Assembly: GCA_029717555.1 (NCBI GenBank) | Contig: JAMDHS010000112.1 | Span: 1-62,341 of the forward strand | DNA length: 62,341 bases | Reading direction: 5' to 3' | From: Peribolospora baueri | Lineage: Eukaryota; Basidiomycota; Peribolosporomycetes; Peribolosporales; Peribolosporaceae | Part shown: positions 2,526 to 56,153 of the stretch, in pieces | Numbering within the stretch: the first letter of the stretch is position 1 | Layout of the letters: each line of letters begins with the position of its first letter | The notes under the pieces: generated by a model | Database searches by the model: none | The model's input: only the letters and a program-made list of their open reading frames with translations | Told to the model about the DNA's origin: nothing | Position numbers and translations under genes: made by a program

Positions 2526-5500
2526 ATGGGAGACTCTTATCGCCCTGGAGAGTCGCGCCGTCATACCCGTTCGCCCTCTGCAGTGGCTCCATTGGCCGCG
2601 CCCATCGCAGCTCTCATGTCCATGTCCGCACCATCGGTAGGAGGGGCGGGACCTCTAGCCGCCGCGCCTCCCATGGATTACCGGGAGGCTTACCGTCGGT
2701 ACGAGGCTATGGGCGCTCTCGGCGGTCCTGGAGCGCCCATGGCGACCAGCATGCACTCCGATTGGAGCCCTAGTAGAGATAAAGGCAGCGTCGACTGGGA
2801 AAGGGAACGAGATCGAGCGCCGTGGCCGAGAGAGCGCGACTGGGATACCGATTTGGACCGCGAGAGGGCTTGGGACGAATACGAGAGGGAGAGGAGGGAG
2901 AGGGCGTGGGAGAGATGGGAGTGGGAGAGGCAGAGAGAGCGCGATTATGGTGAGGACCTTCACGGCCGTTTGTTCTGTTCGCGGTTGAAAACAGGCATAT
3001 TGGTGCTGACGGCGGCTATCACGCTACCTAGACCATCGCAAGCGACCTCGCTCGCCCACCCCTCCACGCCGTGGTCGTTCTCGTTCCCGCTCTCATGATC
3101 GACTCGATTCGTACGCATACTCCCGCGACCGTTTTGACGACTGGGACAGGGAGCGTGGTCGCTACGAGGATCGGAACAGGGAACTGGAGAGGGCGTCAGA
3201 TCGGGACAGATACGAGCCGCGGCCTCGGTATAGCGACCGGAGAGAGAGCGATAAGGACCGAGAACATTTGACGGCTTTGCCGGGCTCGTATGGAACGCCT
3301 GGAAGCGATTTCGGTGCGTTCAATTCTCTGGATCCAATGCGAGTTGGCTGTCACTAACTTTCGTTTCCTCGGCGGTTCCCTCAGGACGTTACGCTGGTCC
3401 GGGCGGTCCTAACTCACTCCCGAGTGGCTCTCTTTCCGGTATGGCTCGGGCGCCCTCGTTCGATCCCATGTCATCGCCAAATCTCTTGACCTTCCGCGCC
3501 TTTGCAAGTTACATGCGCCCTTCTCTTCCCTCCTCCGTGGGCAACAACGACAGCGCATCAAGCGGGGCGCTTACGGCGAGTTACCAAGCGTACCGCCAGC
3601 GCTTCCAAGCCCGTCAGCTCTGGAAGTTCTTCGAGCAACGCAAGGAAGAAACGTGGTTCAAGGAGAAATACGGCCTTGGCGAGGCGGAGAAGGAGCTGAG
3701 GAGGCGCACGAAGGCCGCGGGAAGGAAGGGTCGTAAGGAGGCTTGGAAGGCCAGGATGGAGCAGGAGGGCGAGGTGGAAAAAGTCAATTTCGACATAAAC
3801 GGTGAGCTTTCGATGACGACGTCCAAAGTAAGCATATTGTCTGACTTGTGGGACTGCTCTCTTGAAAAGGAGGTGCTCCACCCGCTCTTTCTAATCGCTT
3901 GGGCGAGCCGATGGAGCTAGTGGCTACAGTCGGCAACGACGCCGGGAACGATGCAGCAGATTCTTCCGCTGTTGGCACCGGTGGCGAGGGCGAAACCGGC
4001 GAAGGCGACGACGATGGTGCGCATTCCACTCCTTCCACCCCGGCCCACGGTGGCAAGGGAGCCGACGAGTCGGTCAAAGCGCAGATGGACGAGGGCAAGG
4101 AGCGAAAGGGCGACGCAGAGGCGGATTTGCTTTCCGTCCCTGCGGATCCGTGGCAAATTTTGATCAAAACCATTCCGCCGGACCTGAGCCGTGACAAGCT
4201 GGAAGAGGTGAGCGGATCCCAGTTTGAGTCTTTTTTTCCCTACCCCTCCATGCTAACGACGGCCGTACCCGCCGCGTCAGGTCTGTCGAAGCTTCGATGG
4301 TTTCCGCTATCTCGCTCTTGGAGAACCGAACTCGTCCAAAAAGTTCCACCGCGTGGGCTGGGCGCAGTACGAGCCTGGCACGGACATGGAGGCGGCTGTG
4401 TCCAAGCTTGACGGCTCTCGGATCGACAACTTCACCCTCCACCTCGGCCTCTCCGTCCGCCCTACGAATGCAAGACTTCGCACGACGGCTGAATATGCCA
4501 ACGCGTCGAGTAGATTGGAGAAGGACATCGACCAGGCCAAGAGCATCGTCGAGGCGCTCGAGAAGGAGGACAGGGAGTTCCTCGGCGACGCGCTGGAGCC
4601 TGTCGGTGCTGAAGTCCAGGAGAGCGGTCTGGCGCTCATAGAGGCCGTCGCTCGTCGGCATGGCGTCCCTGAGCGTTCTGCCGATCAGTCGATGAAAAAG
4701 GAAGACGTGAGTGTCCGTCGTGTCGGGACCGTTGGTCTGTGATGATGATCGATGCTAGCTCTCGATGCTAACTCCCGAACTGTTCACACGATAGCTGAAA
4801 AAACTGCTCGATCTGCACATCGACTACCTTCGATCTGTGTATCACTGCTGCTACTACTGCGTCGCCGTGTGCGACTTTCCCGAAGAGCTCATACGCAAGT
4901 GCGCCAAGCACGTGCGCAAGGTGCCACCGGAGGGTACGAGCGTGGAAGAGAAGCGCGCGGGCACGGGGGACGAGACGTGGGCAAGGAACATTGATGATAA
5001 GGTGCGGCTGATCACGGAGAGGGATCAGGTGGATCCCACGAAATACGGCGGGAAGAGCTTTGACGCGTGAGTCTTGAGTTCCCTCCTATCCTCAAGAACC
5101 CGTCGAAGACGAAGTTTGGGTTTTCGCTGACCACGGCCTTGTTGTCGTTGTTCCCCGATTTCGTTTCACAGCGAGCTGGCCAAAATCGCAGCACCATACA
5201 TCAAGCAAGAGGACGACGAGAAGCATCGTTGTAAGGAGTGCAGCAAGCTCTTCAAGGGAGCGCAATACGTTGAGAAGCACATTTTCAACAAACATAAGGA
5301 CCTCCTAGGAGACTTTCCTGACGTGGTGAGCGTTCGAGTCTCTTGTCGTGCTCTCTGTTCTTGGGTGCGCAAGGGCAAGCTCTGATCATGCGGCGGCGTT
5401 CAACCTCGGTCATACACATCTCCAGTTGGCCTACTTTAACAACTACGCGCTGGACTCAACGCGAGCGCCGCCGTCGATGGCTCCAACGCCGACGGCTCAG

Positions 5501-5995
5501 CCACCGGCGATGATGGCCAACTCGATGGCAGCAGGTGCGGCTGGAATGATGATGGGTTTCCCTGGTATGGGCTCGTCCGGATTCTTCTCTGCTGCCTTCC
5601 CCATGGCACCTTTCACGGCAGCCAACGGGGGGGCGGCGGCGTCCATGTCGCCGTTTGGCGCGCCCGCCGCTTCGCCTCTTGCGAGCCGGATTGGCGGAGC
5701 ACCGCTGCGGCTGAACGATCGGATCGGAGGGATGATGATGCCGAGCACGACGCCGGGAGGGGGTGGCATGGCGGCCAACGGGGGGAGCCCGGCTGGAATG
5801 TCCATGTCGATGCGCTCCGGCCTTGGTCCGTCGTCGTCGAGCTCGGCTCCGCCGCCGCCTCCGATGGACCCGGCGACGGTGGCGGCGGTGACGGCGCAGA
5901 GGCCGCTCGACCCTCGGGCCAAGGCGCAGCAGAGGGTCAGCTATCAGGACCTGGACAGCGCGGCGGAGGGTGAGGTGGGCGAGTTGAATTACTGA
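2526..5995 (+). CDS. ARS2: Ars2/SERRATE-type zinc-finger RNA effector
   Basis: Homologue of arsenite-resistance protein 2 (SERRATE), a nuclear scaffold that links the cap-binding complex to RNA processing and decay. A low-complexity N-terminus with Arg/Glu/Asp repeats is followed by the DUF3546-type helical region (YQAYRQRFQARQLWKFFEQR, near 3580-3780) and the conserved centre around LHIDYLRSVYHCCYYC (4800-5070). The diagnostic C2H2 finger is CKECSKLFKGAQYVEKHIFNKH (C-x2-C-x12-H-x4-H), near 5230-5300. The tail is Pro/Ala/Gly/Met-rich and ends at TGA 5993-5995. There are several short introns, for example 3805-3870, 4208-4280, 4707-4793, 5070-5171 and 5325-5424. The start is an ATG preceded by a C/T-rich leader. 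The family call is firm; exon edges are approximate. Confidence 0.9.
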
Positions 5996-40292: not shown

Positions 40293-41729
40293 TACTCGCT
40301 TCGCTGTGTCGCTGGGATAGACAACATTGGGAAGGAAAAGACTTGCGGGCCACAGTTGCCTGATGACCTCGATACCATCGGCGTTCGTGAGCACGTTGTA
40401 TATAATACCAGAGCGGAGGACAACGAAAACGTTGACCGCCTGTCCGTCTGACAACGTATGGAACTTTGTTGTCGGGGGAACCACGTGCGGAGAAGACTTA
40501 CTCGATCTTCACTCTTTCCTTACCGTGGGGTCGCTCGTTTATTCTCGAGCATGTTCGACCTGCTCCATTCTGAGGAATGACAAGAACGCGTACAAATCGT
40601 ACTTGGCCTCGGTATGGAGCAATGCTCTCAAAGAGCGACGCTCCGTTCGCCTCGTTTCATGTGCTCTCATCTTTCTCTCCTCCCTCTACTACGCTGATAT
40701 GTTGCCTCTGTCCTGCCAGTTCAAGTCTTCGTGACGGAGTGAGTGCAGCCTTCTTCGAGCCACGCTACGCGCTAGGTGAGCGTGATGGAAAGACATCGTG
40801 CATTTTGGATTACCACCTCATGTGGAAGCGCTACACGAGCACGTCGAGCGAACCCTCTGGCGGAAAAAGACATGCTTACGGTTCAGACTGCTTCTCTGGG
40901 CACAAGTGCTGGTGCCCTTCTCGGCGATACACCGAAAGCTATCCAACCAGACTGAACATTTGCACGACCCTGGCTCATGACCATGGCCGAGGTGCGATCG
41001 GTAGAATTTGACATATGATGCCGATTACTCTTACGCAGGAGGATGCACACAAGCTATGGAAGCTGAGCGAGGACCTCGTTGGGCAGAAGTTCTGAGGTTG
41101 TGAGGGCGCCTCGCAATAGCTTCTAGATCTCGACGTCCTGGTGCCCCGAAGGGCCCATGCGTTCTTCGGCCTCGTTGTGTGCGCCTCTTCGCTCTCAGAG
41201 ACGGACCATGTGATCATCGGGAGCTGACAGATTCGGGGTTAATAGATAATCTTGCTTGATAGGAATTGAAACTGGATTATCTTATCCAGATCTTGAACGG
41301 ACGCACCCTGGGAATGGTTTTGCGAGCCCTTTTCGAGTTCTCGCGCTCCCGGTGCACCCTCTCGGTTGTGACGCGTAGAATTGAAGCCAGAGGCGACGAT
41401 TCTGCTTCCGCCCGCGAGGTGTTGGCCGACGCCGCCGAGACCGTTGTCGGAAATTCTGCGTTGCAGAGTGCAGATCTGCTCCAATCAGGTATATGAGCCT
41501 TTGCCTGCACCTCTTCTTTCCACACAACCAAAAGGTGACCAGGAAGTACGGAGGTACACAGCTGATGGATGCGCGTTTGCCAAAGTCAACCTGCATCGTC
41601 ACTGTGAGTATAAAGCCGAGATCATGGATAACACAAAAGATCAGGTAAGCAGCAGATCCAGCAACCTCCTATCCTCATCAAGGCAACCCATCTCTCTAAC
41701 CGTCATCCTGCTTCGTCTCCATTACCACC
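40293..41729. other. Intergenic region, lower GC
   Basis: 1.4 kb between SPE2 and the broken dehydrogenase gene. By eye it is less GC-rich than its neighbours. Small open frames (for example in 40327-40734 and 41266-41496) show no known domain and mostly lack an ATG. A small palindrome, CTGGAT-6-ATCCAG, lies at about 41271-41288. Possibly relic sequence; no gene is supported. Confidence 0.45.
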
Positions 41730-42356
41730 ATGTCCTTGGACGGCCCCATCACGGTCGTGATTGGCGCCTCTCGCGGGATTGGCGCTGCACTAGTGAAAGA
41801 GCTGAAGGCCAAGGGGCACCATGTGGTTGCGACGATGCGAAAGCCGACTCCGGTGGAAGGCGTTCAGGTCATTCCGCTCGACATTACCAGCGACGAGTCT
41901 GTCAGTGCTGCCGGCAAGGAGATTAAGCAGGCGGTGAGCGAGCGGGGCGGCAGCGGAGGAGACATTGTCGTCCTTCGGCCTGACGCGTTTTTGGTTTCTC
42001 CGTCCTTCCCTCTCTCCTTCGACCTGTCGTGCTTAAGGACACGCTGATCATCAACGCCGCAGTGGGCGAGGACGAGAAGCTGCTCGGGATCTCCAGTGAG
42101 ACGCTAACCAAGTGTCTGGATGCGAATGTCGTGGGCCCGCATCGCATAGTGAAGGCCTTCCTTCCTGCCCTTCGGGCGCGCAAGACGCGCAAGATCGTCA
42201 TCATTAGTAGCATGTCTGGATCCAAAGCTGTGCAGATTGACAGCAATTATGCCTTCGCTGGGCCGTACGCTGTCTCCAAGGATGCGGTCAATATGATCGC
42301 CATCCAGCTTCATAACGAGTTGCACAAGTCCGAAGGCTTCATCAGTGTGCCGTTAA
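41730..42356 (+). pseudogene. Short-chain dehydrogenase, 5' part (split by inversion)
   Basis: N-terminal 174 codons of a classical SDR in two exons (41730-41933, 42038-42356). The cofactor motif is VVIGASRGIGAALVKEL (TGxxxGIG-like), followed by DTLIINAAV (NAG-like) and KIVIISSMSGSK. The active-site pair is YAVSK in FAGPYAVSKDAVNMIAIQL. The reading stops at FISVPL plus one base, at a clean donor GTGAGT (42357). No C-terminal exon follows. The expected continuation, PGWVNTDMGRKVSDV to the end, is found at 52767-53003 on the minus strand with matching phase. The coding part has no internal lesion, so breakage looks recent or is structural (inversion or assembly). Read-through past the donor would give an unrelated tail ending at 42496. 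Confidence 0.85.
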
Positions 42357-42396
42357 GTGAGTTGTGTCTGGGCGGTCGGGAGGGAGAGTCGCGAAC

Positions 42397-42521
42397 CTTA
42401 GCTGATGAAGGGCCGCGTAGGGCATCGAAGAGGTCATGTGGCCCACATCGAGCAGCACCTGGAACCGCTTCTTCCCTTCCTCCTCCGAGCCGTTGAAGAA
42501 GGAGATCGCGACGACTGCAGG
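42397..42521 (-). pseudogene. FAD-linked oxidoreductase, internal exon (split by inversion)
   Basis: The minus-strand frame reads PAVVAISFFNGSEEEGKKRF, then VLLDVGHMTSSMPYAALHQL. This is the segment between the FAD-binding domain and the berberine-bridge-enzyme-like C-terminus of BBE-type flavoproteins. The exon starts after an acceptor (CCACAG) at about 42522 and ends at a donor AAG|GTTCGC at 42396, only 40 bp from the SDR donor facing the other way. The next exon (phase-matching RTIATHGDRKAF) lies at 53047 on the plus strand. Upstream, a weaker piece (TFGVLVRSPQ) may belong, but the N-terminal FAD domain is absent between here and the golgin-like gene. Confidence 0.75.
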
Positions 42522-42799
42522 CTGTGGGGAACGGACGAGGACGCCGAAGGTCTATCTGTTTGTGGTGTTGGTCGGCATGTCCAAGTTGGCAGGAGGGCGG
42601 TACGTCGGGGCGCCGCTCGGCTGCGGCGGGGCCGGCTGCGGCGGGGCCGGCTGCGGCGACAGGGCCCGCCGAGGGATGGAGTGCGTTACTTGCGTGTCGA
42701 CCGAATCTACATCCACCCAGTTCTTGACGAGCTCATTCCAACTTCCTTGCCCGCCCTACCTCTTCTCACACAACCCCTCCCGCCTTGGCGAACAGAAAT
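42522..42799. other. Promoter of the coiled-coil gene, with 15-bp repeat
   Basis: About 280 bp between the oxidoreductase relic and ATG 42800. It contains GGCTGCGGCGGGGCC repeated about 2.7 times (about 42618-42657) and a C/T-rich run (42735-42790) as leader. Confidence 0.5.
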
Positions 42800-45707
42800 A
42801 TGGTGGACCCGTCGCCCGAGGATGCAAAGGCGAGGGCAGAAAAGGTTGCGAGAGCCAAGGCGCAGGTTGGTGTCCGGTGCTTCTCCGTCCGCCGACCTCT
42901 AGGGTTGCTGACATGTGGGCACGCTCTTTCTTCGATGCGCGTAGCTCAAAAAACACCAGAAGAAAAAGGCGGGGGGAGCCAAGGCCGGTAACGCGGCATC
43001 CCCTTCTCCCTCAGCGAGCACGATATCGCCCGGCTCGGCGCCGACGATCGCCGAGTCCTCGAATTCCGGAGATGGAGGGGCAGAGATGACAGATGCTGGC
43101 GCGAAGAAGCGGGAGGAGGAAGAAATCGCTTTGAGAGACACGTCGTCTCTATTTCCTGCCGACGATGCCGGTCAGGACGCCGACTCAGACCGCGCCTTCT
43201 TCTCCTCGCCTCCCATGTCCGCCTTGGCGTCGTCGCAGGGCTTTGAAGGTCAGCATCAGAACCGATTCGAGGGCAAGCCCGACGCCGAATCTCTTGGCGT
43301 CGAGATCGCCCGCGCGGAGCAGCTTGAAATCGATTCTCTGAGGAAGGAGCTAGCGGACAAGCAGGCCGCCATCTCGGTCCTCGTGTCCGAAAAGTCTGAG
43401 CTGAGCGCCAGGGCCGACGAGCTAGAAGGGCGGCTGGAGGAGCGAGAGGCGGCGGCGAAGGAGGGAATGGATGAAACGGAACGGTTGAGGAAGGAGCTGG
43501 AGGCGATGAAGATAGAGAAGGGTGAGGCCGAGGGGAGACTGGCCGAGGAAAAGAAGACAGGGGAAGAACAAAGGGACAAGGTGAAAACCTTAGTGAGTGC
43601 CGAGCCAGACTCGTTGTCACTACCCGTGCCGTGCATCCCCCATTGTTTCTCACCGTTCTCTCCGTGCTTCACTGTCCCTCGCCGTGTACAGGAACGCGAG
43701 CTTGATGTCTCTCGACGACAGGCGACGGAACTCCGCTCGACGATCACTTCCAAAGATCAAACAATCGCTGATCTCGAAGAACGGGCTTCTTCAACGGAGG
43801 AGGTGGATGGCCTACGCAAATCGCTCGCTGGCGCGGAGGACCGCGTATCCGGCCTCGAGGCCGAGCTCTCCCGCCGGGCGCAGACCTTGAGCGACCTCAA
43901 GGAGGAGCGCGACAAGCTCGAACGAGAGGCAAAGGCCGCCAAGACGGAAGGGGACGAATGGCAGCAAAAGCTTAGAGCTGCCAATGCAGAACTGGACGGG
44001 GCCCGAGAGGAGCTGGCAACGACCCGAGGTAACCTCGATGAGCTGACGGGCAAGCATAAGACCGTGTCATCCGAGCACGAGACGGTTAAAGCCTCCCTCG
44101 CGGCCGCGCAGACGGAGATCGAGGAGCACAAGAGCACGATCGCCACGCACGCCGATTCGCTCAGGGCCGCGCGAGACGATGCTTCCGCCGCTCACAAGCG
44201 CGCCGACGCCGCCTCCAAAAAGGTGGATGGCCTGCTCGTCGACAACGAGCGGCTGATCAAGAGCCTGGACGAGGTCAAGGAACGGGTGGGACAGCTGACG
44301 GCCGAAAAGGCCGAGCTGGGAGACCGGATCGAAGGACTAGAGCGTAGGATACGTGAGACGGACAAGGCGTCTCAGGCGGACAAAGAGAGGGTCGAAGGAC
44401 TGGAGCGAAGGCTACGGGAGGCGGACAAGGCGTCTCAAGCGGATAAGGAAAGGGTCGCTCAGCTGGAGGAAGGCTTGGAGAACAAGCAGGGCGAGCTTGG
44501 CGGTCAAATTGCCGAACTTGAGCGGAAGCTAGAGGCCGTCCGGGGCTCGTTGGCGGAGAGGGACTCGGAGGTGGACAAGCTTTCGACCGATCTTACGAGG
44601 CGGCAAGAGTCTCTCGACGCCACGTCGGCCAACCTCGCGGAGGCAAAGACGCAGGCCGAGCGGTCACGGGAACAGATCGACAAAGTCGAGGCTAGCCTCT
44701 CAAAGACGCAGGCCGAGCTAGACGCTGCAAAAGGCGAGGTCGGCGTCCTGACTCGGTCCGTTGAGGAGCTCAAGGAGGAGCACCGCCAGGAGACGGGCCG
44801 TCTGCAAGCAGAGCTGGACGAGGCTCGCGCGGCTGCTCGTGCAGCAGACGGGGAGCTCAAGGCGATGGCTGAGGCGAAGGAGAAGGAGAAGAAGGAGAAG
44901 GAAAAGGAAAAGGCCAACGGGGCCGTCGCGGAGGGCGGAGACATGGTGGCAAGGGACGTGTTTGACTCGATGATGCAGCAGCATGAGCTCGACCTCTCGA
45001 CGGCTCGATCTCAAGTCCGCTCCCTCGAGGCCAAGGTGTTTGCCGCGGAAGACACGAGCCATGGCTTGCGTCGCCAGCTGGGCGATCTGACACGGCAGCT
45101 GGAGGAGCTCAAGAAGAGCAAGGCCACAGTGTCTCCGTCTCCGTCTCTCGTTGGCGGCGATTCGCTCTTCGTCCCCGCCTCCGCTCCGATGCCGCTCGCC
45201 TCTTCCTCACGTTCTCACCGTCGTTCAGCGACAGCGATGAACCTGCCCACGCTGTCCGAGTCGCTCGAGTCGACACCTTCGCCGTCCTTTCTCCGCTCTC
45301 CGGCGCCAGGCCTGACGCCGACTCGCGCCCGAGGCATCCGCACGCAGTCGCCGTCAGAACTCAACTTGCCCCCGGAGACGCGTCACAGGAGAAGAGAAAG
45401 CTTGGGCATGCTCAAGGCGCGCATCGAGGATGAGCAGGGCTTCGGTGGTTTCCCAGGATCGCCCTCTCCGCTTTCTGGCTCGGGCGCTCAGACCCCTTCG
45501 ACGGGGGTGACGCCGCAGACGACTGCGAGCGGAAAGCCGTTCAGTCCCAATGTGGAGGTCACAGAGGACGGCTACGTCGGCGCCAAGCCTTTGCCCGTTC
45601 TCAGCTCGGGCACAGACGTCCTCGCGACGACGACCAAAAGGCAAGGCCTGCACCCCGACGCGCTGTTGTACTGTAGTTGCTGTCAAGGGGACCTGTTCGT
45701 CATCTAA
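42800..45707 (+). CDS. Golgin-like long coiled-coil protein
   Basis: Cytoplasmic coiled-coil protein, probably a membrane tether or scaffold. It has 909 aa in three exons (42800-42865, 42945-43592, 43692-45707). The basic N-terminus, ARAKAQLKKHQKKKAGG, resembles the start of GM130-type golgins. Residues of about 105-650 are nearly continuous heptads rich in Glu, Lys, Ala and Leu (for example ERRLREADKASQADKERVAQ, a repeated segment). A Ser/Pro-rich region with RHRRRESLGMLKARIEDEQG follows. The C-terminal end is LHPDALLYCSCCQGDLFVI, which is not a GRIP domain. The true start is ATG 42800, since the in-frame codon upstream is TTG. The second intron is a multiple of three without a stop, so retention would insert 33 residues. 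The golgin label is inferred. Confidence 0.75.
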
Positions 45708-45922
45708 GCCATCAAGGAAGAGTCGCACGGAACGGTTCTTACGTCTCCTTCACGCGTGACGTGTTGCTCGACCGCCGATTGCATTAATCCAAAAGGAGAG
45801 GGGTAAAAGTCTAGGTGTCCGGATCACCTCATGCGGAGCATCTTATGCTCTTAGAAGTACGTGATTACGATGGAAAACGTGATATATAGAGCGGCGGAGG
45901 ACTGCTGACGGGTGACGACCGT

Positions 45923-48735
45923 TCAAAGCGTGTAGACGAATGCAGGGTGACAGTCACCAAGCTTTGCGTGGACCTCTTCCTCGTTCAAACCCTGCTCCTT
46001 CAACGCTTTGACCTTTCCGTTCCGCTTGCCATCCCTCCTGGCCTTGTTCTCGTGCCAAAGATACGCCTCGAGCACGAGCGTCAGCGCGAAGCCGACGACA
46101 TTGAGTGCCAGGTTCACCTCGTGTCCCTTGCGGTAACGCGGAGCGCCCGAGTCCTGATAGATCCACGTGCTGGTGATGCCGCCACTGCAAGTTAGGACGG
46201 GTGGAAGACGGATGAAAGGTTAGATGAGGCGTCAACACGGTCATCACCGATTGAAGGGATTGAAATACACGAACCAGTTGGTGAAGATGATCCTGCGACA
46301 GAGAATGCGACGCCGAAATAGAGGATTTGCTCGTCAGCCGGAGTATGCGCTAAAAAACTAAAAAAAAACTAAAAAAAAAATAAAAAAAAAAAAAAAACGT
46401 ATACTCACAAAGAGGCGATGGCCGTCGCCCTCTTGTACTATGACGGACGGAAGGCAAGCGTTAGTCTACGGGGTGCCACTCCAGCCTGTGACGAGAAGAG
46501 CGCGTTGTGAGTGACTCACATGACCAGCCGTGTTGTTCGCCATCCAAGCGAGACCACAGGCAGGCCAAGCGAAGGCGCCGGAGACTGCGTGCGAAGCAGG
46601 AAAATTGTGTATAATGAAAGGCGGAGAGGAAGCGGATCGGTCAGTCATAGATAGACCTTGGTGACGACGCACAGGTCCCTGAAGATTGAGAACTCACCCA
46701 GCAAGAATGTGGCGCCATACTGGACGTGGCTGTTGGAACTAGCGTATGCCATGGAAAAGCCAATGATCGACAGTGCGAAGCAGAAGAGTGCGGCAGTCGC
46801 GCGCTGCTTGAAACGGTCCGCGTAGATGGCCGTAACGATGGTGACTGAGAACAGGAGTCATGTTAGAAAGGGAACGAATATCCACTGAGGCCTGACTGAT
46901 GGGCGCACCGACGAAAGCTGCCGCGAAAGGAGGAACCGTGAGCAGCTGCGCGTGCGTGGCAGTATAGGTGCCAAGGCCCTTGACGATGGTCTGACGAGTC
47001 ACGAGACGAAAGCGTCAATGGAGGTCCGAGGGGACTACTGGGATGGGTTGATAGAGTTCGAAGGCATACCGGGAGGAAGAACGCGGCTGAATACACCGAC
47101 GTCGCATCACAGTATCCTTGAAAACATAGGAGCCAGACAATGGGAGACTTGTAGGCGTCGAGGACGTAGCGCCATTCGAAGCTGTGTCGCGTCGGGGGCG
47201 GAGCGGATTGAAATGCCGAGGTCAACACACCGCGACTCACGCACTAGACTCGATGGGGCTCACCGGTCGCCGGAGTGTTCGTCCGCCGCCGCAGGTACGA
47301 CGCTTTCCTGCTTCTCCTCCACCTTCTCTCCGGTCTTCACGTCCGCAGGCTGGACGCCAAACCCATCCTTGCCCGACGTCCCCTGGCCGAGGTCTTCCGC
47401 CTTTGCGCGCGCCCAGTCCATCTCGAGACGACGGACGGCGAAAGCGCGTTCTTCAGCGGTAAGGAACTTGGCCGTGCCGGGGGAGCGCGGAGCGAGGAAG
47501 AAGGAGCAGACGCCAAAGAGGACAGTGAAAATGCCTTGAGATGGGAGAAGGGAGACGAGGAAACGTCAGAGTTCGCACGGCTTGTTTCAGACGGGGATAT
47601 GCTCACCTTCCAGGATGAAAATCCAGCTCCATCCGTGCAGTCCCGCCCTGCCGTCCAAGTTGCTGATCGCGGCGGCGAGAAGACCGGAGAAGGCGCCTGA
47701 AAGAGAAGCGGCAGAGAAGAAGAGACCTTGTCGTAGCTGGAGCTCGTGGCGCTTGTAGAAAAAGGTGAGCCAGACGGAGATGCCGGGGAGAATGCCGCCT
47801 TGGGGGTGGGTAGGGAAGGAAAAAAATGGAATGCCATTAGATGAGCAGCTTGGCTCCGACGGGCGCCAGAAGGAAGAAAGACACGTTAGGCAAACCTTCA
47901 GTGAGGCCGAGGAAGAAACGAACGACGTAGAGACCGGTGCGGGATGTGACAATGCTGAAGAGGGCAGGTCGGAATGCCGAGGATACGAGGACGAAACGGT
48001 GAGATTCATCTCAATTACATAAAAAGAGACGAGGACGAGGCGTACCCTTGCAATGTGGCGCAAACGCCCCAGCAAGTGACGAGGAAGGGCAGCCAGAAGT
48101 TAGCACCGACCTTCTTGAGGACGAGGTTGGCGGGCACCTCTCCGACGATGTAAGGCACGTAGAGGATGGTGAGAGCGACGCGGTAGTCGTGAGAGGAGAG
48201 GTTGAGCTCCTTCTGCAGGCCGTCTAGACGCGCTTGACCGATGTTTGTCCGGTCGAGGAAGGAGAGAAGGTAGAGCTAGTGGTGTGGGAGGGCACGGGGA
48301 GGGAAGACGGGGTAGAAGGGGGGGAGAAGGAAGGACCGCAGGGTTAGAAGGACTGGAGTGGGAGGGCAGACGCGAAAAGAGCTCACCATCGTAGCCAAGG
48401 GGATGACCGTCGCGTCGAACTGAGCGGCGAAGCGAAGCATGCCAGAGCGATGAGAAGAAGGAGGATGAGCTAGCCGGCTCGACGGCGGGAACTGGCGTCA
48501 CGGGTCGCCAAACTCGTCGGCTGCGCACCTTGGCGGCGATCCTCCTGTCCATCCTTCTCTCCTCGGCGGGTGACATGAGCACCGCGTCCTCCCCGCCATG
48601 TTCGCGCCCCGATCCATCGCTCCTTCCTTCCGTCACCGTCGCTTGCGGGTTGGGGGAGCGAGAGCGGTCCGTCTCCGTCGGAGCGGGAGCCTCCGCTGGA
48701 GCCGTGCCGGGCTCAGGGTCGTGCTGGTGTGCCAT
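45923..48735 (-). CDS. MFS transporter, allantoate permease (DAL5-like) family
   Basis: Plasma-membrane anion:cation symporter-type MFS protein of the fungal allantoate/nicotinate/vitamin permease group. ATG at 48733-48735, stop at 45923-45925, with about a dozen exons. The hydrophilic N-terminus ends with EERRMDRRIAAKV. Blocks: LYLLSFLDRTNIGQARLDGL, TILYVPYIVGEVPANLVLKK, GLYVVRFFLGLTEGGILPGI, FFYKRHELQLRQGLFFSAAS and GLHGWSWIFILEG, then a central loop with FLTAEERAFAVRRLEMDWAR. The second half has FEWRYVLDAYKSPIVWLLC, FAWPACGLAWMANNTAGH and RIIFTNWFVYFNPFN. The tail is KALKEQGLNEEEVHAKLGD. One intron contains a long A-rich run on the plus strand (46356-46397). The substrate is not predictable. 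Confidence 0.9.
46356..46397. repeat. A-rich low-complexity tract in an MFS intron
   Basis: Runs of A broken by single C or T, lying in an intron of the minus-strand transporter, where it reads as poly-U-like sequence close to the acceptor side. Likely length-variable. Confidence 0.85.
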
Positions 48736-49546
48736 GGCGGATCGGAGGGAGTGAGGGGGGAGAAGGAGAAGGGAGGAGGAAAGGATGGCGGATGGTGGGG
48801 GGAGGAAGAAAAAGGATGATGAGGGGAAGAAGACTGCGGAGAGGGCGATGGAAGGGGACGGCGGGCCGGGCGGGGAAGTGTGAGTCTAGGAAGACGCCGT
48901 CCGGCACGTGGGCAAAAAAATGCGCGTCGAGCGCAAGACGAAGACGACAGGAGATGACGACGCAGGCTCGGAATGCAGAGGAGTTAACAAGAGTCATCGG
49001 TGTCGAGAGGCAGAACGAACGAGCAAACGAACGAACGTCTTCCTTCGCCGCAGACGTTCATGTCGAGATGTAACACCACCTCTCCTTCCTCCTCACCGCC
49101 GTCGCTCTGGCCGCCATCGCGCCCTCGCCTTGCTCACCCCGCTTCTCCTGACTCGACCGCTTGTTACTTTTTCTTCCTCTTCCCCCACATTCCGCCTCCG
49201 CATCTTGTCGATCCGTCAGCCGCAGCACGGCACCTTCTCACGCTGACAGTTTTTATCTCGGCAAGTGGAGGTGGCTTTGGCACGTGTATGCATCTAGAGA
49301 AAGGGAGAAAGAGAGTAAGAAAAAAAAAAAGAGGGCTTTCTTTTTCAACTCGCTGGACGGCATAGCGAATCACAATCCCTTTGCCATCATCTTAACAAAC
49401 AGTCTCATCCGCCGTCTTTCTTGACCTATGACGCTCTCAGACCTCTCGAATTGCACGACACAGAACGAAACGAGATTCCAATCCTCCACCGCCTGGAGAA
49501 GGAGTAGCGCACAATGAACAGAAGAAAAGCAGTTAAAAATGTTTTT
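48736..49546. other. HSP90 3' region and MFS promoter
   Basis: Tandem minus-strand genes are separated by 811 bp. It contains the purine-rich (minus strand C/T-rich) leader of the MFS gene at about 48740-48890 and an A/G-rich stretch at 49296-49332. No gene is seen. Confidence 0.5.
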
Positions 49547-52236
49547 TTAGTCGAGAGCCTCTGCGGGGAAGGAAAGAAAGAAAGATGAAAGAAAGGGCAT
49601 GCACGTGTCAGTCACGTCAACTGTCATGTCACCAGATCGTCGGCCGGCATTTCGGACACTCACCCATCTCGTTGCTCTCCGCGCCCGTCTCCGCCGGCGC
49701 CTCGACGGGAGCAGGGGCGGAAGGCTCGTCGATGGCCAAGCCGAGCGAAATCAGCTTGAACAACCTGTCGGCGAAGCTGGACGGCTCATCAAGCGAGAAG
49801 CCACCGGTGAGGAGGGACACCTCGAAGAGAAGCAGGGTCAGGTCCCTGACCGTGGCGTCGTTCTTGTCCTTGGCCACCTTGTCCTTGAGCTCCTTGATGA
49901 TCGCGTTGCTCGGGTTGAGCTCCATCGTCTTCTTCGACGCCATGTAGGACGACATGCTCGAGTCGCGCAGCGCCTGGGCCCGCATGATGCGCTCCATGTT
50001 GGACGACCAGCCGAACTGACCCGTGACGAGAACGCACGGCGAAGTGGTCACGCGGTTCGACACAACCACCTTCTCCACCTTGTCGCCAAGGATCTCCTTA
50101 ATGGCCTTGCACAGGTCCTCGAACTGCTTGGCCTCCTCCTCGCGCGCCTTCTTCTCCTCCTCCGTCTCCTCCAACTCGAGACCCTCCTTGGACACGCACA
50201 CCAACTTCTTGCCCTCGAACTCCTTCAGCTGCGTCACCGCGTACTCGTCGATGGGGTCGACCATGAGCAGCACCTCAAAGCCCTTCTTCTTGAGCGCCTC
50301 GAGGAAGGGAGAGTCGCGCACGCTGCTCAGCGACTCGCCGGTGAGGTAGTAGATCGACTTCTGGATCTCCGGCATCCGAGTGATGTAGTCTGCGGGAAAG
50401 ACGGACGCGGTGGTCAGTCAGCGACTCGGCCATACCCGCGAGAGACGATGCTGCGCGCACTCACCCTTGAGGCTGGTCAGCTCATCACCACTCTTGGTCG
50501 AGTGGAAGCGGAGGAAGGAGGCCAGCTTGGCACGGTTGGCAGAGTCCTCGTGGATGCCAAGCTTAATGTTCTTGCCGAAAGCCTCGTAGAACTTGTTGAA
50601 GTTGTCCTTGTCCTGGGAACATGAACGTCCGATAAATACACAATCAGCCCTCACCTTTCCGGCCTCGGAATGCCCAAACAACACAGGGAAAAGCATCCGA
50701 TTCGGCAAAGCACACTCACCTCCGCGATCTCGTCGAACATTTCGATGGTCTTCTTGACGACGTTCTTGCGGATGACCTTGAGGATCTTGTTCTGCTGCAG
50801 CGTCTCACGGGAGATGTTGAGGGGGAGGTCTTCAGAGTCGACAATACCCTTGATGAAGTTGAGGTACTCGGGAATGATGTCCTCGCAGTCATCCATGATG
50901 AAGACGCGGCGGACGTAAAGCTTGATGTTGTTGCGCTTCTTCTTCGTCTCGAAGAGGTCGAAGGGAGCGCGCTTGGGAACGTAGAGGATGGCCTTGAATT
51001 CGAGCTGGCCCTCGACGGAGAAGTGCTTGACAGCGAGGTGGTCCTCCCAGTCATTCGAAAGCGACTTGTAGAAGGAAGCGTACTCATCGGCGGTGATGTC
51101 CTGAGGGTTACGAGTCCACAGCGGCTTGGTCTTGTCTGTGGTAGAGAAACAGAAAACAATAAGCGTCCTGCCTCGCCATGTTTTGGACATGCGCCACCGA
51201 GCATACTCACTAAGCTCCTCGTTCTCCGTCTGAATCTCCTTGATCTTCTTCTTGCCCTTCTTCTTGTCCTCGTCCTCAGCATCCTCGATCTTCGCCTTCT
51301 GGTCGTCATCCTCGGCCTTCTCCTCCTCCTCCTCCTCGACCTCCTTCTCCACCTCCTTGGTCACGACGAGCTGGATGGGGTAGCCGATGAACTCGGAGTG
51401 CTTCTTGACAATCTCGCGGATCCTCTTCTCCTCGACGTACTCCACCTGGTCCTCCTTGAGGAAGAGGCGGAGCTCGGTACCGCGGCCAAGGGGAGGGTTG
51501 GTGGTGTCGGGAGTGATGGTGAAGGTGCCACCGGCGGCCGACTCCCAAATGTACTGTTCGTCGTCGTTGTGCTTGGTGATGACCTGAACGCGCTCGGCAA
51601 CGAGGTAGGCGGAGTAGAAACCGACACCGAATTGACCGCTGTGGAAAGGAAGAAAAACGGAACGTCAGCACAGAGTGTGCGAACGCGGCTTTCCCGAAGC
51701 TCTGGATCGACTCACATCATGGAAATGTCGGCGCCGCTGCTGAGAGCCTCCATGAACGCCTTGGTGCCGGACTTGGCGATCGTACCAAGGTTGTTGACGA
51801 GGTCGGCCTTCGTCATACCGATACCCGTGTCGCGAATCGAAAGCACCTTGTTCTCCTTGTCCGGGGTAATGCGGATGTAGAGCTCCTTCTCATGCTCAAG
51901 CTCCGCGGGGTTCGTCAGCGCAGCATAGCGGACCTTGTCGAGCGCGTCCGAAGCTGTAAGGAGGGCACAGGAACGTCAACGTACAGTGTTAGGATACGGA
52001 CAGGGGAGAAGACGAGTACCGACGCCGCCGACGCTCGCACACTCACCGTTAGAGATAAGCTCTCGGAGGAAAACATCCTTCTGGGAGTAGAAAGTGTTGA
52101 TGATGAGGTCGAGCAGCTGGCTGATCTCAGCCTGGAAGCTGAGTGCGGCGCACGGGGGTGGGTAACACAAACGGTCAGAACGGACGTGACCTTTGTCGTC
52201 GTTGAGGAGAAGTACTCACCCAAAGGTTTCGGCCAT
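49547..52236 (-). CDS. HSP90: Cytosolic molecular chaperone Hsp90, ending in MEALD
   Basis: ATP-dependent chaperone of about 700 aa. The first exon encodes MAETFG (ATG 52234-52236), followed by [55 protein letters not shown] and [17 protein letters not shown] (nucleotide site). A charged Glu/Lys/Asp linker (about 51230-51360) precedes [35 protein letters not shown] and the dimerisation region with [20 protein letters not shown]. The last intron ends at CCGCAG (49561-49566 on plus) and the final 14-nt exon (49547-49560) completes NEMEALD-stop. The usual TPR-docking end of cytosolic Hsp90 is MEEVD. It lies inside the inferred inverted segment and appears intact. Confidence 0.96.
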
Positions 52237-52766
52237 TGTGAGAGCGGTTCTAAAGGATGAAGGTCTGTGAGATGAGGCCGCGTCACGATTACAGTAAAGT
52301 GTAAAGGAGTTTTGGGGACAGAGGATTCGAGGTGAGCGAGTGTCTTGGGCTTTTGCGTGGAGGAGAGAGGCAAATGGAGGCAACTGCTACTGACCGGAAG
52401 TGGTGAAGGAAAAGGAAGGTGAGGGAAGAAATACTCGCTCTGTCCTCGTCCGCCCTCGTCGCTGCATTTTCCGTCTCACCGCATCAGGCCTTCGAGAAGC
52501 ATCCAGAGCGATCATCCGTGTAAAGCCGCTTGTCGCCGCCTAGCCGTCAATGCCGTAGCTGACTACCGCGGCCTAATCTTTCTCGCTGTGAGACAATGGT
52601 CACGCATCCTTCCAGTCGTTTGTCCTGTCGCCTGTCTTGCTTGCGACGGAAAGCTCGAGAACTTTGTCTACTTGTCCCCTCGGCTATATGTCCCCTTGTC
52701 TACTTGTCTACATGTCTACAGGTCCCCGCAGCTCTCACTCTGGCGCCAGCGACTCTCCACTCCGTA
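52237..52766. promoter_or_regulatory. HSP90 promoter region
   Basis: 530 bp between the HSP90 start (minus) and the relic SDR 3' end. It contains a heat-shock-element-like array (52490-52509). A repeated CTTGTCTAC(TTGTCTAC/ATGTCTAC) run lies at 52695-52722. No gene is seen. Confidence 0.5.
52490..52509. promoter_or_regulatory. Heat-shock-element-like array upstream of HSP90
   Basis: Four alternating 5-bp units, CTTCG-AGAAG-CATCC-AGAGC: two perfect nTTCn/nGAAn units and two with one mismatch each. It lies about 255 bp before the HSP90 ATG. Hsf1 binding is inferred from the motif and the gene identity. Confidence 0.5.
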
Positions 52767-53003
52767 TCACCATGGGAGCTCGGGGCCGTCCCATCCGAAA
52801 AAGTGAGCGCTGTTCTCGAGTTTGAGTCCTTCAATGACCTTGACGATGCCCGAAGCGCACGTCTCCGGTGTGATTCCGCCTCCTCCGAGCACGTCGCTGA
52901 CCTTCCGACCCATGTCGGTGTTCTGATCGCAAGGGTAGAAGAAAGACAAATAAAGAACATTGCACGCTCAAAAGGTCACTGCTACTCACCACCCAACCCG
53001 GGT
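52767..53003 (-). pseudogene. Short-chain dehydrogenase, 3' part (split by inversion)
   Basis: C-terminal exons of an SDR: a 14-nt microexon (52990-53003; encodes the end of N plus PGWV), a 67-nt intron, and the last exon 52767-52922 (NTDMGRKVSDV, GITPETCASGIVKVIEGLKL, AHFFGWDGPELPW and stop). The acceptor ATAG at 53004-53007 on the minus strand begins mid-gene; no 5' exons lie to its right. Its phase (missing one base) matches the donor at 42356/42357. Joined in thought, the two parts give a normal-length SDR of 230 aa. No internal lesion is seen. Confidence 0.85.
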
Positions 53004-53046
53004 CTATGTCGTTACCGTGGTCATTTCAAATATCAACACGCTTCAG

Positions 53047-53660
53047 AACCATTGCCACGCACGGTGATCGCAAGGCATTCAAGGCCGCTCGCTGCCTTTT
53101 CCCTCCCGGACGCGGCGCTATTCCAAATGTGAGCGCGACCCCGGCCTGCGTGCCCTCCCGCTCGCTCTCCACGGCTGACCCCCCGCCCTCGCCTCGCCTT
53201 CCCCTCCCCCGTCCCCTGGTTGGCCGTCGTGCCGGCGCAAACAGGCTGTTCAACAACTACGTGCATCTTCTTAAGGAAGTCCCCGACGCGGGCCAGACGG
53301 GCCTACTGATCGAGCTGCACCCCTACGCCGCCGTGCTGGCGAACCGCAGCAAGTGATGCTTTGCCAACCGCTGTCGGTTCTACAACATGAACATTGCCGC
53401 GCGTTGACGTCGCCGGAGAACGACCGGAGGATCCGCGACTGGTCGCGGACCCACGCCGAGGTGGTTCGGGCGGCGGAGAGCCAGCGTCCTGGTTCGGAGC
53501 TCCCCTCGGGACAAACCAAGGGCTACGACAACTACGGCCTGGGGGACGAGCGGGTTCGCGACGTGTTTGGCGAGAACTACGAGCGCCTGGGCAGCTCAAG
53601 GCGCACTACGACCCGGAGATGCTTTTCAACAAATGGTTCCCCATTACACCGGCTGCATAG
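53047..53660 (+). pseudogene. FAD-linked oxidoreductase, C-terminal part (frameshifted)
   Basis: BBE-type flavoprotein C-terminus beginning after an acceptor (CTTCAG, 53041-53046) with TIATHGDRKAFKAARCLFPP. It continues with RLFNNYVHLLKEVPDAGQTG and LLIELHPYAAVL, then CRFYNMNIAAR, TSPENDRRIRDWSRTHAEVV, GYDNYGLGDERVRDVFGENY and YDPEMLFNKWFPITPAA (TAG 53658-53660). The conserved blocks lie in different frames. At least three single-base losses are apparent, near 53355 (GATGCTTTGCC), 53404 (CGTTGACG) and 53592 (CTGGGCAGC). All are next to short G or T runs, so they could be true decay or long-read homopolymer errors. The N-terminal half is not here. Confidence 0.8.
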
Positions 53661-56153
53661 AGTTCCGCTCCGCTCCCACCCTCCCCCGTCCTCTACCTTT
53701 TCGCCCCGGCTAACCCTGTCCTCCTTCGAATCCGTTGGAGAGAGGCAGGTCTGTGATGTAGTCCATCGAGACATGTGCTTCGTTTTTATAGAATAGAAAA
53801 AAAAAAAAAAAAAAAAAAAAAGGCCTTGGGTCCCGCGCTCGCTTTTCCTTCCCGCTCCCGCCGCCGCCGCCGACCCTTCCCTCCCCTCTCCCCCCAAATC
53901 CACTCCACCCCGCCCCGCACTGTCGGTCATTGTGAGCCGCCGCCGCCGCCGCCGCTGTCGCCGCCTTGCAAAGCTATCGAGCGTTGAGACCGGGAAAAAA
54001 AAGAAAAAGGCACGAGAACGAGAACGAGCGCAGTAGCAGTAGCAGCAGCAGCATTTCGTAATAGTAGCAGGAACAAAAAAAAGAAACAGAAACGGAAACA
54101 GTTGCTGAAGCAGAAGCAGAAGCAGAAGGTAACAGCGCGATTCGTACAAAGTCGGGACGCGGGCGACGGACGGGACGTGCATTTTTTTCTTTGCTCGGCA
54201 GGAGGGACGGACAAGGCAGATGTACTTTTTTCCTTCTTCTTCTTTGTTTCACTCTTTTGACTACGTGTACGCGTACGCCACAGCCGCGGTCGGCGCAAGA
54301 GAGAGAGAAAGGAAAAGGGAAAATGAGAGTCGATGTGGGGAGACGGGCGGAGGGAGGGAGGGACGGGAAGGAGGGGGGCGGGATGGAGAAGAAGGGAGGA
54401 CGGGAAAGGAGTGGGTCGGCCCACCTGTCCACCTGCCTGCCTGCCGGCCACGATGGTCCAGAACAACGATTTGCTGCGGCACCACTGCGGCCGTCGTACG
54501 ATGAGAAGACGGAAAGATACGGCGTGTGCCAAGGGAAAAATACGGAGAGCGAGAGCGGAAAGATACGGAGTGTGCCAAAGAGCGAGAGCGAGACCCGGAA
54601 AGGAGCGCGAGAGCGACGAACGGGAGACGGTGGCGGACAGAGACCGGGAGAGAGGCCGGAGAGAAAGAAAGACTAGGTGAAGGTGGGGAAAGACGAGCGG
54701 CGTAGAGGGCGGAATTGTCAGAACCCGTTGCCCGAACCCGTCTTGTTGCCGAAGCACAGTACTGTGCCGATGTAGCGGGTACGAAGATGGAAGTCCGAGT
54801 GCAGACCGTCTCGGGGTTTGTACATATGGAGCAGCGGGGCGACGGTGCGCACGCACGCGACCGGAGAGGCGCGGGGGAGCGTGCGCGACGTACCGTACTG
54901 CTCTCCCGTTAGGTTGAAGAATGTCTCTAAGGAAATGCGTATGATTTGCACCGAGGGGCATGATCGCCGACGTGGGCGGTGGATAACCAGAGAAGCCCGT
55001 TACGCCCACTAGCACGCGAGGAGGTTTAAAAGGGTTCTGGAGTGTACCTGCCCCAGGTTCCAAGCCAAACGCCCACCGATCGCTCTTTCCCAAGGACAAA
55101 TAGCGTCGCAATCCGAGGGAGAGACGTATCAAGAGGGCACAATCTCTCACCTGGCCTCCCACCGTTAGCAAATCAATCCACTGCGCAAGCCTTCATGCCA
55201 CGCAACGCACTGCTCGTGCTCCCACAGCGATGACTGAACTCGGCATTTCGAGGCTTACGGAAGGTTAAAACCAATGGTTGACAAGGGTTGTCGATTGGAC
55301 AGAGTTGGAGCTGGTCTACGGCGATAAGCCGCCAGGACGACGTTAGACTTGGATGTCGTACCAGCCTTTTGCGAGCGGCCAGAAGGAATATTCCTCGCGC
55401 CAACCACACTTCGGTCGGCCCTAAGCTGATGTCCTGCATCTCACTAACCTAACCGAACGAACACGCCTTACCAACCGCCTTTACTGAAGGTGCAATGCTG
55501 AGGGTGACCAACCAGTCGACGCTCTGCATTCAACCCGGTCGTTCCCGCATTCTCCTCTTCCCCACACGCACCTAGTTTTCGCCTTCATTCCGCCGTCTCC
55601 CCTCGTCGGCCTCACGGTCTCCCTGATTTCGTGGCCACCGCGTTTTCCTCTGCTATTCGTCTCCACTTCTACCAGTATCCAGCCATTCGCCCCAGCCTAT
55701 TATCATAGCTTCCCGGGTTCCAACCTTGCCACCTTCTTTGTGGGACTGCGTTATCGATGACAGGTGAGCGATGTCGCCGGCAGGGACAGAAAGGCAGTCG
55801 TATATCCGTTCAAAAACAAACTTTGGAAGCGATCCAGCTAGGCAACTTGCTCCAGCGAGCGTGTCATGACTACATTCTCGATCGCGAGGATCTACCCAAA
55901 CAAAGGGAGACCACGTCGCTGGCGCGCGAAAGGCGACACATCTGCCCTTGATGTCTACGTTCATACATTATGCGTCATAGCAGACCGAGATCGACGATCG
56001 TGCAGCGTGCTATGTGATTTAGATTCTCTGAACCTTCTACATCCGTTCGGTGTTGGTCAACCGCATCGTGTACTAATGACGGTCGAGCGGGGCTCAAACT
56101 CTTCCCCGCTCACCATCCATCTTCGCTTACATCTCAACACTGCCCTCATCTGG
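53661..56153. other. 2.5-kb gene-poor region
   Basis: Contains an A25 run (53797-53821), a GCC-repeat run (53857-53960) and purine-rich sequence (54000-54670). A long minus-strand open frame (53927-55171) is low-complexity at its C-terminal half, shows no domain and has no convincing ATG, so it is not called. From about 54,950 to 56,150 GC content is lower and no gene is recognised. Confidence 0.45.
53797..53821. repeat. A25 homopolymer
   Basis: Uninterrupted run of 25 A, about 135 bp after the oxidoreductase relic. Confidence 0.95.

Follow-up and report, generated by a model that had tools for sequence, protein, structure and literature searches.

We found that a block of about 10.6 kb (~42408-53033) has very probably been turned over by a single balanced inversion, which is the simplest account of four gene pieces lying at its two ends. 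The four pieces are real and are paired as one balanced inversion predicts: there are two breaks, and each cut gene has its missing part at the opposite break in the right orientation. The inversion cut a short-chain dehydrogenase/reductase (SDR) gene inside an intron and a second gene, a FAD (BBE-type) oxidoreductase that is a decayed relic, inside an exon. A preliminary description of this DNA had proposed the ~10.6-kb inversion with both genes cut in introns; the inversion is supported and so is the SDR intron, but the cut in the oxidoreductase lies in an exon of a decayed fragment. The window, the whole stretch of DNA that was analyzed, is an entire contig (C14, 62,341 bases) of a 22.1 Mb assembly. 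The features discussed below are collected in Table 1.

Table 1 Features at and between the two breaks, and the second SDR copy. Positions are those of the window unless another contig is named.
Feature	Position	Strand	Basis or remark
SDR exon 1	41730..41933	+	joined frame and homologue alignment
SDR exon 2 (last of 5' half)	42038..42356	+	joined frame and homologue alignment
Cut SDR intron, 5' part, 51 nt	42357..42407	+	homologue-placed break, intron lengths
Left breakpoint	42408..42410	.	within ~3 bases; oxidoreductase homologue alignment
Oxidoreductase relic, left piece, ending ...MPYAAL	42408..42524	-	homologue alignment
Tandem array near left break	42618-42658		distance 210 bp
Coiled-coil protein gene, 899 aa	42802..45707	+	gene model
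MFS transporter gene, 509 aa	45923..48735	-	rough gene model
HSP90 gene, 692 aa, 7 introns	49547..52236	-	gene model
Tandem arrays near right break	52664-52727 and 53179-53217		distances 305 and 147 bp
SDR exon 4 with stop	52767..52922	-	joined frame, genome search, homologue alignment
SDR microexon, 14 nt	52990..53003	-	joined frame
Cut SDR intron, 3' part, 28 nt	53004..53031	-	homologue-placed break
Right breakpoint	53031..53035	.	within ~4 bases; oxidoreductase homologue alignment
Oxidoreductase relic, right piece, beginning NTLQN, with stop and frame breaks	53035..53660	+	homologue alignment
Diverged partial SDR copy (upstream region, exon 1, 20 bases of exon 2)	L008 (C145:266500-276000), 4574-5583		

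The two SDR halves (41730-42356 on the plus strand and 53003-52767 on the minus strand) join in phase to encode 230 residues with no stop and no lesion. The proposed SDR donor at 42357 (plus) and acceptor at 53005-53004 (minus), the 14-nt microexon and the matching phases are all confirmed, and the stop-free 230-aa frame bears out the earlier remark that the halves carry no internal lesions. The joined protein matches the classical SDR family (PF00106, E 9.2e-26, 91 bits against a cut-off of 26.6), and differs from it in having its gene divided into two parts, one on each strand. A protein search returned 135 hits at E <= 0.001, and the 15 best of the 120 listed share 50-55% identity with the query over 97-100% of its length. 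The joint falls at residue 175, adjoining an invariant PGWV, and 14 chosen homologues are collinear across it in the alignment. Identity to these 14 proteins is 52% for the 5' part and 49% for the 3' part, compared to 53% and 53% between the homologues; thus, neither half looks decayed.

The position of the second cut was given by the oxidoreductase homologues. A protein search found ten, with the consensus ...PYxxxNxxQN[PA]... followed by MATHGDRK in most. The left piece matches through MPYAAL (near 42408), where the matching ends, and the right piece carries, upstream of the supposed acceptor, NTLQN (near 53035), a frame break and then IATHGDRK. In the homologue alignment MPYAAL and NTLQN are consecutive residues of one conserved exon, and 1 or 2 bases are assignable to neither side of the cut. 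NTLQN, which was spotted by eye prior to scoring, obtains 15.87 bits on the homologue columns, a score reached at one of the 124,652 window positions on both strands, namely its own. Continued beyond the break, the left piece scores -6.03, a value reached by 21,544 positions, and the joint of the earlier intron model scores -4.53. The putative oxidoreductase donor at 42396 (minus) and acceptor at 53046 (plus) are therefore not its splice sites, as the homologues place the cut in an exon. The SDR intron consequently takes in 42396-42407 and 53004-53031.

Comparison of intron lengths agrees with these corrected breakpoints (~42408 and ~53032), which leave a single SDR intron of ~79 nt (51 + 28), a normal length. 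The remaining two SDR introns are 104 and 67 nt, and the 21 introns modelled in the three genes of the block, in a gene model that restricted introns to 30-159 nt and was weak in its MFS part (score 25.4), span 64-152 nt. Among these are the seven HSP90 introns, each with the donor GTGAGT and 75-107 nt long. The two introns of the earlier model would have totalled 81 nt (39 + 42). The homologue columns and the intron lengths together led us to reject the intron model for the oxidoreductase. The gene model also places the coiled-coil, MFS and HSP90 genes between the breaks, as first described.

The oxidoreductase pieces resemble BBE-type FAD oxidoreductases (PF01565 + PF08031) in that nine homologues can be aligned with them at 34-50% identity, but they differ in that no FAD-binding part occurs in the window, where five homologues were searched, and the remainder is broken. 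These five match convincingly only from ~residue 240-250 onward, one of them with a weak extension to residue 218 across a stop, so ~240 amino-terminal codons are missing. Searches of the assembly found no close copy of the amino-terminal part, thus another, unexplained event is needed to account for its loss. When the pieces were scanned apart, one reached 13.5 bits for the BBE domain (PF08031) against a cut-off of 20.6 and the others gave nothing; a search of the genome with PF08031 matched two other contigs only (C167 and C91), the window not being among the matches. The right piece contains an in-frame TGA (53354-53356), frame breaks near 53040, 53404 and 53590, and probably one further frame break between 53128 and 53245, while by eye no lesion was seen in the short left piece. 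The oxidoreductase is therefore a 5'-truncated, decayed relic and no working member of the BBE-type family.

The uneven distribution of lesions bears on the order of events. The right piece of the oxidoreductase carries 4 or 5 lesions and the SDR gene none. Under equal exposure, the probability that all lesions fall in the right piece is P = 0.031 (4 lesions) or 0.013 (5), and the Poisson probability of no SDR lesion is 0.004 (4) or 0.001 (5), with lesions counted by eye, ~504 coding bases assumed and lengths approximate. Since the right piece has a stop and frame breaks and the SDR gene has none, the inversion is probably younger than the oxidoreductase decay, and it is in this relative sense alone that the event can be called young, as it had been. 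Thus, the oxidoreductase probably died first, or the SDR gene is still kept by selection. We consider the SDR gene itself to be, probably, a newly dead gene.

We examined the surroundings of the breaks for repeats. An inverted-repeat scan of 41000-54500 gave 67 pairs, and among the 25 longest there is none at the breaks themselves. One pair in this set (20 nt, 85%) flanks the block, at 456 and 119 bases from the breaks; at these distances it does not explain them, and inverted repeats were rejected as the cause. Tandem arrays lie within 305 bp of the breaks, which is no more than expected in this window, because 54% of its positions are within 500 bp of an array (55 arrays, merged by hand from 75 rows), and they were likewise discarded as an explanation. 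By eye, the two breaks share a match of 3-4 bases, too short to weigh. Our best guess is that the broken ends were rejoined with almost no loss.

The same observations bear on whether the block was simply assembled in the wrong orientation, with the SDR gene intact in the living cell. Halves without decay are what would be expected of a whole gene, and the assembly consists of 178 contigs, of which this one is short (62,341 bases). Against this, the window contains zero N, the 25 longest of the 67 inverted pairs include no long repeat at the breaks, and a genome search with each junction found one match in the assembly, the junction itself. We therefore regard a false join as unlikely and retain an inversion in the genome as the preferred reading.

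Next, we compared the pieces with the rest of the assembly. The SDR search matched four places, three in the window and a copy of exon 1 on another contig (C145, 84%); the three longer SDR exons have one window match each, and a genome search found no complete SDR gene elsewhere in the assembly. The oxidoreductase pieces matched three places, all within the window, and the homologue P0121 matched ten, of which three are in the window and seven show 29-44% identity. The C145 copy corresponds to window 41015-42057 with 74.5% identity, and in exon 1 the two share 180/204 bases (dN 0.079, dS 0.296, NG86), a pattern that points to coding constraint, for much of their history, on one SDR copy or both. 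After 20 bases of exon 2 the C145 copy breaks off abruptly, and a convergent NmrA-like gene, itself carrying an in-frame stop, adjoins it; in a genome search for the partner of this junction, the NmrA-like piece matched itself only. With the C145 copy truncated and the window copy split, neither SDR copy found is whole. Upstream of the truncated copy on C145 lies a longer dehydrogenase gene, of which the last exon alone is found in the window, where it stands isolated at 41033-41092 (TQEDAHKLWKLSEDLVGQKF, 75% over 20 residues, E 2.2e-4).

An earlier duplication of the SDR gene, of which the diverged, truncated 5' copy on C145 is a sign, would fit a history in which the four pieces arose by separate duplications or translocations instead of one inversion. 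We judge such a history very improbable. The genome searches found no second close copy that completes either an SDR half or an oxidoreductase piece, and in each of the two pairs the pieces meet at the cut without a gap or a repeat of more than a few bases.

We propose that, under a single inversion, the ancestral order would have had the SDR gene and the oxidoreductase relic both on the plus strand, one at each end of the block. One break would have fallen in the second intron of the SDR gene. The other would have hit an oxidoreductase exon, in a gene whose amino-terminal part and reading frame were probably gone by then. The block with the coiled-coil gene, the MFS gene and HSP90 would then have been turned over and its ends rejoined with few bases changed at most, leaving the two SDR halves on different strands with over 10 kb between them. 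As a kind of event this is ordinary, gene-breaking inversions being ordinary genome change.

A further possibility is that the inversion is real and the SDR protein is still made, the ordinary spliceosome joining two half transcripts, so that the gene would be a fresh trans-spliced gene near its origin. Frame and splice sites are kept in both halves, whose identity to homologues (52% and 49%) is close to that between whole homologues (53% and 53%); however, a young break accounts equally well for the missing decay. The half introns share <=4 complementary nt, and the longer flanks (444 and 397 bases) share 9 nt, which was reached in 36 of 60 shuffles. No match to a branch-like pattern is present in the 3' half intron, while the 5' half has CTGAT at 42402. 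Complementary tracts are not required everywhere for trans-splicing, and for this reason we keep the reading, unsupported as it is, as an extremely improbable one. An open-literature word search of titles and abstract starts returned no fungal gene split by inversion and trans-spliced, which does not prove that none exists.

The closest parallel to such a gene is the split HSP90 of Giardia, where, in the available text (PMC8494341), the gene is divided in an intron with the halves apart and the splice sites kept, and the two transcripts are complementary to each other over 26 nt. In contrast, no complementary tract was found between the SDR halves here. The gene model shows an unbroken HSP90 within the block, and this HSP90 is irrelevant to the comparison. 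As an inversion, the event resembles the fungal intrachromosomal inversions described, for example, in Dothideomycetes (PMC3516569, available text), in that genes are reordered within a chromosome. It differs from that account in that the breaks cut genes and that simple repeats do not exceed expectation around the breaks, and the fungus studied here appears to belong to a different phylum.

The inversion preferred here is resolved to a few bases and split a gene almost or entirely without loss of sequence. It occurred in a fungus with no close HSP90 relative among the matches listed, where named fungal HSP90 proteins are 78-84% identical among the 120 listed. That HSP90 search scored 7998 candidates, of which 4667 passed; apart from two plant proteins, the named entries in the list come from basidiomycetes, so the fungus is probably a basidiomycete, a placement that goes no further than the phylum. 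The inversion also serves as a caution, since splice-like motifs that face each other can be mistaken for an intron within what homologues show to be an exon. Should the SDR gene still be expressed, it would represent a rarely seen first step towards a trans-spliced gene.
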